In this document: positions 108 through 8,943 of the stretch, piece by piece
How the letters are laid out: the number at the start of each line of letters is the position of its first letter
Numbering within the stretch: position 1 is the stretch's first letter
Assembly: GCA_913009285.1 (NCBI GenBank)
Contig: CAJVYE010000011.1
Span: 1 to 12,302 of the forward strand
Reading direction: 5' to 3'
Length of the DNA: 12,302 bases
DNA from: an uncultured Nitrospirota bacterium
GTDB taxonomy: Bacteria > Nitrospinota > Nitrospinia > SZUA-224
Position numbers and translations under genes: made by a program
The notes under the pieces: model-generated
Seen by the model: only the letters and a program-made list of their open reading frames with translations
What the model was told of the DNA's origin: nothing
Databases searched by the model: none

Positions 108-173
108 CAAGCAGAAGACGGCATACGAGATAAAGGAATGTGACTGGAGTTCAGACGTGTGCTCTTCCGATCT
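108..173 (+). other. Illumina P7 index adapter (assembly contamination)
   Basis: Positions 108-131 match the P7 flow-cell sequence (starts CAAGCAGAAGACGG). Positions 132-139 are an 8-base index, AAAGGAAT, whose reverse complement ATTCCTTT is, as I recall, TruSeq index 27. Positions 140-173 match the TruSeq read-2 primer site and end GCTCTTCCGATCT. Its translations give the well-known database artefacts KQKTAYEI (plus strand) and KSTRLNSSH (minus strand). Nothing at or before 173 should be annotated as gene sequence. Confidence 0.98.
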
Positions 174-1172: not shown

Positions 1173-1335
1173 TCAGGTACTGCGCAGAAATAAGTTGTAC
1201 ATATGGCGCAGGATTTTGGTTCGTCTTCAAGGCGCACCAAAGGGCGCATATTATTAATATGTAACCTTTGGTGCAACGCTGGAGACGGAACAAAAGACAA
1301 GCCAGATGTGCAAGTTATTTCTGTGCAGTGCCTCA
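1173..1335. repeat. Foldback element A (long imperfect hairpin)
   Basis: The two halves are complementary along nearly the whole length. The left arm begins AGGTACTGCGCAGAAATAAG, and the reverse complement of the right arm begins AGGCACTGCACAGAAATAAC. Pairing continues through GTACATATGGC/GCACATCTGGC and GGCGCACCAAAGG/GTTGCACCAAAGG to an apex around CATATTATTAATATG (1247-1261). The arm motif CAGAAATAACTTG recurs in both arms of element C at 8758-8943. No open reading frame inside looks coding. The right end lies 3 nt before the ribosome binding site of the 1350 gene, so if transcribed it would form a large 5'-UTR hairpin. MITE-like repeat and structured leader RNA are both possible. Confidence 0.8.
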
Positions 1336-2075: not shown

Positions 2076-2258
2076 TATACTGAAGTAGGCCACAAATTTG
2101 GATTTTTCGCGCTCAGGATTAGATCAGTTTTGGCCGATCTGATTGAGCAAAACCGCAGGAATAGTAGTGCTATTTCGAGGATTTAACGATTGAGGTTCGG
2201 TCAAAGATGATTTGAAGATGAGATGCGAAAATCCCAATTTATGGCCTACTTCAGTATA
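2076..2258 (-). repeat. Foldback element B, shares its core with element C
   Basis: This is a 183-nt near-palindromic element. Its 26-nt outer arms (2076-2101 and 2233-2258) pair with few mismatches: the left starts TATACTGAAGTAGGCCAC and the reverse-complemented right starts TATACTGAAGTAGGCCAT. The 131-nt core, 2102-2232, read on the minus strand aligns without gaps to 8785-8915 of element C, with about 17 differences by hand count. The outer arms of B and C are unrelated. The right end lies about 35 nt before the htrA ribosome binding site. The htrA frame runs back into the element (to 2212), but that extension is not protein-like. I see no transposase. The minus-strand label refers to orientation relative to element C. 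Confidence 0.88.
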
Positions 2259-2307: not shown

Positions 2308-3762
2308 ATGGTTAAACTTCAATTCAGGAATCACTTTGTATCTACAGCAGTATTTATGATTTTGGTACTGGTGTTATGTCTTGGTACAACAACAGTGTGT
2401 GCCATGAAGACTAATGACAACCCTGCAGGGTTAAATATCTTTGTGGAGATAGCAAAAAAAGAAAATCCTGTAGTGGTTAATATAAGTACCACATCGAAGG
2501 TGAAATTTAAACATCCTAAAACTAGAAGGGGATTTAGAGGCCCGAGAGCCCCATTTGGTCAGAAAGATTTCTTCCAGGACTTCTTTGATAAATTCTTTGG
2601 GGAGATGCCTAAGGATATCCCAAAGAGGAGTCTTGGATCAGGCTTTATTATAGATAAGGAAGGATATATATTTACCAATAATCACGTTATAGCAGATGCA
2701 GAGGAGATAAAGGTTACGCTGGATAATGAAAAAGTGTATGATGCAAAGGTGGTTGGTACTGATCCTAAGACAGACATTGCCTTGATAAAGATTGAAGCAA
2801 AGGAGGATCTTCCTGTGATTGTAATGGGTGATTCTGACAAATTAGAGGTAGGTGAATGGGTGATAGCAATAGGAAATCCATTTGGATTGAGTCATACCGT
2901 CACAGTTGGGGTGATTAGTGCAAAGGGGAGGAGGGGTATAGGTCCAGGTCCTTATGATAACTATATTCAGACAGATGCCTCTATAAATCCTGGTAACAGC
3001 GGTGGCCCGCTTATAAATACAAGGGGTGAGGTAATCGGGATTAATTCGGCAATACTTGCTGGGAATACAGGTGGAAATATTGGAATAGGTTTTGCTATTC
3101 CTATAAACATGGCAAAGAATATACTCGATGATCTAAAAGAGAAGGGATCTGTTACACGAGGGTGGCTTGGTGTAATGATTCAGAAAATTACTCCTGAGTT
3201 GGCAAAATCGTTTAATTTATCAGAAAGTGAAGGGGCATTGGTCGCAGATGTCATGCCGAAAAGCCCTGCTGAGGAGGCGGGATTGAAGCATGGGGATGTG
3301 ATTATTGAATTTAATGGTAAGAAGATAAAGTCGATGGAGGAACTCCCGATGATAGTAGCCTCAACTAAACCAGATGCTAGGGTAGAGGTGGTTATCATAA
3401 GAGATGGCAAAGAAAAGAGGATAAAGGTGACCTTAGCAGAGTTAAAGGATGAAAAGAAGACATTAGTGACTACTAAGAAGTTGGGGATGAATGTGCAGGA
3501 CATAACACCAGAGATAGCGCAGAGTCTGGGTCTGGAAACCAGTGATGGTGTTTTGGTGGCAGATGTTGAGATGGGGAGTGTTGCTGAAAATGCTGGAATA
3601 TTACGTGGTGATGTTATTGTCCAGGTAAACAGACATGATATCGAGAATATTGATGCTTATAAAGCTGTTATGGATACGGTGCAGAAAGGAGATACTATCC
3701 TTTTTCTTATTAAGAGAGGTAGTAGCACTATATACGTTGCGCTCAAGATGGAGAAAGAGTAA
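2308..3762 (+). CDS. htrA: HtrA/DegP-type periplasmic serine protease with two PDZ domains
   Basis: The 484-residue product is an envelope quality-control protease that degrades misfolded exported proteins. Residues 1-32 form a signal peptide: basic start, hydrophobic 12-27, probable cleavage after Cys-Ala at 31-32. The trypsin-like domain carries His126 (TNNHVIA), Asp156 (KTDIALI) and Ser231 (NPGNSGGP). A long Phe/basic-rich loop at about 63-107 precedes it. PDZ1 spans about 283-375 (starts RGWLGVMIQ) and PDZ2 about 390-484 (KLGMNVQDI onwards). Length and architecture match DegP/DegQ/MucD. The start at 2308 is supported by GGAGG and by the signal peptide. A paralogue of the same architecture follows 140 nt downstream, suggesting tandem duplication. 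Foldback element B lies immediately upstream. Orthology to degP as opposed to degQ cannot be decided from sequence alone. Confidence 0.96.
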   Translation: MVKLQFRNHFVSTAVFMILVLVLCLGTTTVCAMKTNDNPAGLNIFVEIAKKENPVVVNISTTSKVKFKHPKTRRGFRGPRAPFGQKDFFQDFFDKFFGEMPKDIPKRSLGSGFIIDKEGYIFTNNHVIADAEEIKVTLDNEKVYDAKVVGTDPKTDIALIKIEAKEDLPVIVMGDSDKLEVGEWVIAIGNPFGLSHTVTVGVISAKGRRGIGPGPYDNYIQTDASINPGNSGGPLINTRGEVIGINSAILAGNTGGNIGIGFAIPINMAKNILDDLKEKGSVTRGWLGVMIQKITPELAKSFNLSESEGALVADVMPKSPAEEAGLKHGDVIIEFNGKKIKSMEELPMIVASTKPDARVEVVIIRDGKEKRIKVTLAELKDEKKTLVTTKKLGMNVQDITPEIAQSLGLETSDGVLVADVEMGSVAENAGILRGDVIVQVNRHDIENIDAYKAVMDTVQKGDTILFLIKRGSSTIYVALKMEKE

Positions 3763-8670: not shown

Positions 8671-8756
8671 GCCGGGGTGGCGGAATTGGTAGACGCAAGG
8701 GACTTAAAATCCCTCGGTTGGCAACGACCGTGCCGGTTCGATTCCGGCCCTCGGCA
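8671..8756 (+). tRNA. trnL: tRNA-Leu (UAA)
   Basis: This is an 86-nt class II tRNA. The acceptor GCCGGGG pairs with CCTCGGC (one G-T) and the discriminator is A8756. The D loop holds GGTAGACGC. The anticodon stem AGGGA/TCCCT encloses CTTAAAA with anticodon TAA at 8705-8707. A long variable arm (CGGTTGGCAACGACCG) is typical of Leu. The T arm is GCCGG-TTCGATT-CCGGC. CCA is not encoded. Foldback element C begins at 8758, one base beyond the discriminator. Confidence 0.97.
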
Positions 8757-8757
8757 C

Positions 8758-8943
8758 TTAAGGACGGGTCAGAAATAACTTGGCATTTTCGCATCTCATC
8801 TTCAGGTCATCTTTGATCGATTCTCAATCGCAAAATCCTCGATATAGTACTACTATTATTGCGGTTTTGCTCAATCGGATCGACCAAACCTGACCTAAAT
8901 CTGAGCGCGAAAAATGCCAAGTTATTTCTGCCCCGTCCCTTAA
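8758..8943 (+). repeat. Foldback element C, abutting tRNA-Leu
   Basis: This is a 186-nt near-palindrome. The left arm starts TTAAGGACGGGTCAGAAATA and the reverse-complemented right arm TTAAGGGACGGGGCAGAAAT; pairing continues through AACTTGGCATTTTTCGC. Even the core is partly self-complementary (AGGTCA, TTTGATCGAT and TTTGGTCGATC segments), so the whole can fold into one long hairpin. The core 8785-8915 matches element B (reverse orientation) without gaps. The arm motif CAGAAATAACTTG is shared with element A. No coding potential. It fills the first half of the 348-nt tRNA-to-activase gap; the second half (8944-9104) is AT-rich, with a small ATCATT/AATGAT stem and a ribosome binding site (AAGGGA) for the next gene. 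Confidence 0.9.

Follow-up and report, generated by a model that had tools for sequence, protein, structure and literature searches.

Bacterial miniature inverted-repeat transposable elements (MITEs) such as MITEAba12 are, as far as the accessible part of its description goes, shorter than 200 bp, carry no gene, and have inverted repeats with ends like those of insertion sequences, a target duplication and many copies; in MITEAba12 the ends are most conserved and the centre is variable (PMC6382973). In the usual view the ends of a MITE tie it to one transposase and the middle is expendable. The Correia repeat enclosed element (CREE) consists of a directional core within inverted repeats of about 26 bp, which occur in two end variants in symmetric or asymmetric combination, and it is described in the accessible excerpt of the source as confined to Neisseria (PMC2649163). 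Chunjie is, by the excerpt of a review, an intergenic MITE of 178-235 bp in Geobacter uraniireducens (PMC10969869). Template switching between the arms of inverted repeats is, according to the available part of a further paper, an established mutation process (PMC8794818). Here two elements termed B and C are described, which lie in a window of 12,302 nucleotides (the whole stretch of DNA analysed, contig CAJVYE010000011.1 of the uncultured Nitrospirota bacterium assembly GCA_913009285.1) and are members of a dispersed MITE-like family. In this family it is the middle which is conserved and the ends which are exchangeable.

A core of 149 nt with 85% complementarity (2094-2242 versus 8775-8923) is common to elements B (2076-2258) and C (8758-8943), in which it is oppositely oriented. 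Their outer arms are unrelated in sequence. Each element forms a self-complementary hairpin, with arms of 60 nt pairing at 80% in C and of 62 nt pairing at 76% in B. The fold energy of C was -87.1 kcal/mol as RNA (z -14.5) and -48.9 kcal/mol as DNA (z -11.7), neither of which was matched by any of 200 shuffles. An initial annotation of the window had pointed out this combination of one core with different but self-complementary arms, and the observation is confirmed and proved to be general. Its quotation of the arms of C has to be read differently in one respect, as TTAAGGGACGGGGCAG is the right arm on the opposite strand; the complementarity itself stands, the left arm TTAAGGACGGGTCAG matching save for one insertion or deletion and one substitution. 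The two elements are composed as follows.

8758..8760, no strand: left copy of the target-site duplication TTA of element C, directly 3' of tRNA-Leu (sequence reading)
8761..8790, plus strand: left arm of C, type I terminal inverted repeat, the type found on 12/28 near-full copies in the own genome
8791..8908, plus strand: conserved structured core of C, 118 nt (covariance model match, 133.8 bits)
8909..8939, plus strand: right arm of C, type I terminal inverted repeat (sequence reading and copy layout)
8940..8942, no strand: right copy of the target-site duplication TTA of element C (sequence reading)
2076..2108, minus strand: arm of B, type II (TATACTGAAGTAGGCC), with TA at the tip (sequence reading and copies)
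2109..2226, minus strand: core of B, of the family of the C core in opposite orientation (covariance model match, 112.6 bits)
2227..2258, minus strand: second arm of B, type II (sequence reading and copies)

The genome to which the window belongs as contig C11 (G000 in the following) is a draft of 1.51 Mb in 304 contigs with 58.9% completeness, and is placed by kinship in one class with the genomes G003 and G007. Searches of G000 with C and with B gave 66 and 47 matches, respectively, both strands of each copy being counted. A profile of the core run over all fetched loci yielded 193 non-redundant matches under 41 genome labels, 127 of them near-full; G000 itself holds 41 core copies, all at distinct places, of which 28 are near-full. 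The layout is constant, with a left arm of 30 nt, a core of 118 nt and a right arm of 31 nt adding up to about 180 nt. In our own classification of the 28 copies, type I arms (GGGACGGGTCAGAAATAACTTGG) are carried by twelve including C, type III (GGACTCGCTCAAAGATAACTTC) by five, type IV (CTCTGGACGGCCATAAATTTAG) by three, and type III' (GGGCTTGCGCAAAAATAACTT and close variants) and type II (CTGAAGTAGGCCATAAATTTGG and close variants) by two each. Three copies have mixed arms (L010, L011, and L025), and the right arm of one (L279) is unclear. Types II and IV have TA at their tips. Two arms-only mini elements without a core were also found in G000, on contig C58 near position 3267 (L048) and at 1638-1684 of contig C37 (L093). 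The one on C37 joins a tip of the type of a further window element, A, to a type IV tip.

In size, inverted repeats, target-site duplication and many dispersed, mostly intergenic copies the element has the structure of a MITE. It is short and has terminal inverted repeats, and was judged non-coding by eye from the whole-element alignment only; 22 of 103 sites lie inside open reading frames of at least 120 amino acids, whereas 75% would be expected if positions were drawn at random from these loci. For a MITE it is unusual that the core is conserved and the ends vary; contrary to MITEAba12, the present family keeps its centre across phyla and differs at the ends (PMC6382973, accessible part). 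The initial annotation knew of no named element with such behaviour. This holds in part: the family is MITE-like in its size, its number of copies, its target-site duplications and its preference for intergenic sites, and the Correia element of Neisseria is a core with two end variants. CREE is the nearest precedent found for arm variants, with two end variants where the present family has many end types in many phyla, and the likeness is one of description in the excerpt (PMC2649163). Chunjie, compared by its description in the review excerpt only, is a MITE in Geobacter, a group where the core is common, and may or may not be a member of the family (PMC10969869). None of the titles and beginnings of abstracts listed by the literature searches described the element, and five pieces of its sequence used as text queries returned no paper.

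That the arm exchange is an artefact of assembly, B or C being a chimera, or is due to chance has a negligible probability. The draft is indeed fragmented, and sequence which we take to be Illumina adapter left by incomplete trimming lies near contig ends (window 109-172, and the flank of L018 on contig C29). Against this stand the same arms at many sites, among them the C type on its 12 of 28 near-full copies and the B type again on contigs C117 (whole) and C17 (truncated), and a core which recurs in numerous assemblies made independently.

A degenerate pattern of the left shoulder of the core matched at least 100 stretches in a collection of species genomes; conservation of the left-shoulder stretch is biased in the set found in this way. 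The metagenome-assembled genomes (MAGs) among the listed matches, with labels and binning taken as deposited, include Desulfobacterota-type deltaproteobacteria, Planctomycetota (Scalindua and Phycisphaerae), Gammaproteobacteria, Rokubacteria, Nitrospinota, Nitrospirae, Omnitrophota, and a few others. When genomes were scanned with a covariance model built on the core, 6 of 77 from the phylum of the window were positive, G000 included, as were 33 of 60 sampled from the family to which a Geobacteraceae MAG belongs, several of which have million-base contigs. Carriage by phages or plasmids was rejected, as blastn of element C against plasmid and phage records and the left-shoulder pattern in viral contigs both gave no match. 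Some copies are altered in the core or beside it. A second small palindrome (GGACAAACAAGTTTGTCC, with CATGCCACCCA adjoining) splits the core at comparable positions in G000, G001, and G002 (L100, L113, L118, and L096), as if it targeted the element; a GC-rich hairpin (GAGCCGCTCCCACGGCGG-like) sits in the apical loop or takes its place in L155, L187, L201, L204, and L220 (JAHJDE, one gammaproteobacterial MAG); and an extra segment (CCTGTCCGAATGGCTGGTAGGCCGGGCGGG or parts or variants of it) lies between arm and core in L156, L181, and L199 from Scalindua.

The arms are discrete types, five of them in G000, around one conserved structured core, and the two arms of one copy are concordant. Among genome representatives mean identity was 76.7% in the core and 49.7% in the 22-nt tip, the tips being compared ungapped, and 79% and 60%, respectively, in a set centred on Geobacteraceae. 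Swaps inside one genome, restricted to copies with concordant arms, gave core and tip identities of 95 and 52% (JAGOQT), 93 and 61% (G007), and 91 and 57% (G000). Arms were compared by local alignment, since their offsets differ by one base and ungapped comparison is too strict. With one copy per genome (n=35) the own arms scored 20.6, compared to a mean of 9.74 (standard deviation 0.64, maximum 12.09) in 1000 permutations, and the own pairing was strictly best in 21 of the 35. A second set found with the covariance model, of which 26 of 30 loci were usable after omission of the edge artefact L333, yielded 16.19 versus 9.18 (standard deviation 0.83, maximum 12.38, 5000 permutations). There the own pairing was strictly best in only 4 of 27, a count which like all 27-row counts of this set still contains L333, because the Geobacteraceae-centred genomes share about four arm types.

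Pairing was also seen in the alignments. In 43 whole elements 90.9% of the cells pair, a percentage of tidy copies as 12 odd or mixed ones were omitted, versus 72.4% after shuffling and 24-45% with slid partners, and all 15 of 15 outer tip pairs vary on both sides. Among 83 distinct cores 24 of 30 pairs change on both sides, with 290 such cells versus 82.6 (standard deviation 9.6) upon shuffling, in an alignment which was fitted to the covariance model and hence leans towards structure. The core would on this account be taken for a functional structured RNA or regulatory hairpin which travels as a MITE, selection on a transcript conserving the core and its pairing and the arms needing only to pair. 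Conserved bases in the internal loops speak for this as well, and so does the orientation between tandem genes, where the core is antisense in 28 versus 12 cases (p 0.017); this bias is, however, weak and one among several tests. G.T versus A.C mismatches showed no strand preference over the 30 pairs (13 versus 10 pairs), and no Rfam family passed its gathering threshold on the element, which gave weak generic hairpin matches only; in the window the two tRNAs alone passed. As transposon ends explain the covariation of the tips without any RNA, we regard a functional RNA as unlikely, if by no means far-fetched. Covariation of stem pairs, which is usually taken to prove a functional RNA, can here come from transposon ends and arm copying, and this calls for caution.

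The core is an imperfect palindrome. Its left shoulder, CATCTCATCTTCAGGCCATC, is distinguished from its right shoulder, GACCTAAATCTGAGCG, at conserved positions, and the core halves can therefore be told apart. They are left and right in 122 of 127 copies. L011 has tips of types I and III and two left-type shoulders, L100 a III'-like tip (GGGCTTGGGAAAAAATAACTTC) and a type-I-like tip with again two left-type shoulders, and L022 two right-type shoulders; L279 was scored left-left, though it has no clear right arm. L010 combines tips of types III' and I with a partial right-type tract in its left half, L025 is mixed at the tips without a tract of the opposite type, and L016, L021, and L110 have shorter tracts of the opposite arm. 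Altogether such tracts occur in 7 of 119 copies. The left arm of L021 has the sequence CATTTTTTGCGCTCA in common with its own right arm, including a T at the joint of arm and core which is absent from the other 11 type I right arms. Within one arm type the own arms agree with each other above those of sister copies. For four genomes (n=12, 17, 12, and 8), the numbers of permutations out of 5000 that reached the observed agreement were 85, 8, 34, and 36, respectively. The tract and within-type analyses omit L173 (G007), the three Scalindua copies with the extra segment, and copies other than type I.

Mixed copies and opposite-arm tracts are traces of two processes, the replacement of a single arm and the copying of an arm from its partner. 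The initial annotation had concluded that both arms changed together, which is true between genomes and within one arm type; 3 of the 28 near-full copies in G000 have mixed arms, and pairing is therefore not strictly required copy by copy. Its suggestion that an arm is copied from its partner, for instance by template switching, is supported by conversion tracts such as those in L021, L016, and L022. The tracts fit arm-to-arm copying plus recombination, that is, template switching. Quasipalindrome template switching is alike in that arm-to-arm copying keeps stems paired, and differs in being a mutation process and not an element (PMC8794818, available part). Alternatively, the core could have been moved between pre-existing inverted repeats by nested insertion or deletion, no arm being copied from another. 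The sharp boundary of core and arms in the whole-element alignment is in line with such separate captures, as are the arms-only mini elements on C58 and C37 and nested insertions on contigs C195 and C154. No duplication was seen by eye at the joint of core and arm, the within-type agreement of own arms would be left unexplained, and mixed arms and opposite-arm tracts require exchange inside the palindrome, so that capture has in our estimation a slim chance of accounting for the family.

A direct repeat of three bases, mostly TTA or TAA, lies exactly at the arm ends in 41 of 118 copies, compared to at most 4 at each of 13 other shifts; in the Geobacteraceae-centred set the figures are 10 of 27 and at most 2. 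The same arm layout and 3-bp duplication are found in insertion sequences of the ISAzo13 family (PF07592), the ends of which are identical to an arm at up to 23 of 25 positions. In two of these, L121 and L244, the transposase frame is open, 3-bp repeats flank the element on either side, and the ends show the arm layout. When 10 insertion sequence ends were compared to the arms, 9 matched some arm above the best of 200 shuffled-arm sets and 1 tied, in a test which is partly circular as most ends had been located by likeness to arms of the same genome; for L121, L244, L256, and L340, where the second end was found independently, the best arm matches were 19, 18 (the tie), 19, and 23 of 25. ISAzo13-type ends together with the duplication belong to types I, III, and III' and to arms in numerous other genomes. 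They are lacking in types II and IV, whose sequence differs and has TA at the tips.

The insertion sequences with arm-like ends do not themselves contain the core of about 118 nt. That it represents an ISAzo13 interior was ruled out, the covariance model matching in 1 of 25 transposase loci (L247) and there outside the insertion sequence end. L123 and L257 contain partial core pieces detected by nhmmer only. In L247 (2466-2620) and L257 (2044-2166) the element lies immediately next to one end of an ISAzo13 insertion sequence, a single TTA being common to both.

The explanation which we consider probable is that of a non-autonomous MITE-like element, in which the arms would be terminal inverted repeats read by a DDE transposase, the core a conserved imperfect hairpin, and the arms swapped stepwise. 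Judged by sequence, most arm types look like ISAzo13-family ends with a TTA or TAA duplication of 3 bp; for types II and IV of G000 a different transposase is presumed. A new tip would first be introduced on one side by recombination or template switching, either among copies or from one half of a copy to the other, and a mixed-arm copy would result. Arm-to-arm copying inside the palindrome by quasipalindrome template switching would then make the other side match, and the transposase would multiply copies with matching ends. We infer the order of these steps, the role of the transposase, the TA duplication for types II and IV, and the keeping of the core for a need of the element or its host. 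Transposition through a hairpin intermediate, which the initial annotation had offered as another option, is unneeded because the 3-bp duplications point to ordinary DDE-type ends. The related idea of a single-strand hairpin transposition of the REP/HUH type, with both arms made from one, draws on the strong fold of single-stranded DNA and on copies in which both arms look copied from one template; with clear 3-bp direct repeats and ends like those of DDE insertion sequences it is very unlikely.

Besides the circularity of the comparison of ends, several points weigh against the stepwise swap of transposase-read arms. Arms that covary from genome to genome would be expected of any transposon, and are by themselves no proof of copying. 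Arms of the own genome were the best match for an insertion sequence end in only 2 of 8 cases with both known. PF07592 was not found in the 58.9% complete draft of G000 and was present in 12 of 37 named core-bearing genomes. In the Geobacteraceae-centred set it occurred in only 2 of 33 core-positive versus 1 of 27 core-negative genomes, and the mobilising enzyme is therefore unproven there. In Nitrospinota it occurred in 3 of 6 carriers versus 0 of 54 non-carriers (Fisher p about 6e-4 by our own arithmetic); the transposase link looked strong in Nitrospinota and failed in the Geobacteraceae-centred set. No transposase was found for the ends of types II and IV, and an IS630 origin of the B-type ends gained no support, PF13358 being absent from G000 and the one IS630-like element examined in G007 having unrelated ends. 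As the tips of types II and IV are themselves TATA, a TA duplication there is unproven.

A wider form of the stepwise swap would see in the core an independent, ancient and structured mobile unit which crosses phyla by taking on the inverted repeats of resident transposase families through palindrome-templated copying, including a switch between the ISAzo13-type ends with 3-bp duplication and the TA-tipped types II and IV. This is possible, though we would sooner doubt than assert it. Exchangeable ends would offer a non-autonomous parasite a way to outlive its own transposase. A single genome offers arms of the matched, mixed, and converted kinds for comparison, which makes the family a natural record of palindrome-templated mutation.

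Arms shared between different cores, for which the initial annotation had proposed to look, occur in the window itself, where element A (1176-1332) has the C-like arm motif CAGAAATAASTTG around a core unrelated to that of B and C. A second copy of A lies on contig C172, with TAA at one end and TAT at the other by our own reading. This element and the neighbour of C are located as follows.

1173..1335, plus strand: element A with its TCA duplications (1173-1175 and 1333-1335), CAGAAATAASTTG arms in the layout of C, and an unrelated core
8671..8757, plus strand: tRNA-Leu(taa), abutting element C, given for context

Element B lies upstream of an open reading frame which, judged from its translation, would encode a putative trypsin-like protease. 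RNA genes adjoin several copies, namely the tRNA-Leu in front of C at 8758 of the window, and 5S-rRNA-like and tRNA-like sequence at L006 (contig C106) and L007 (contig C181), the latter assigned by eye.
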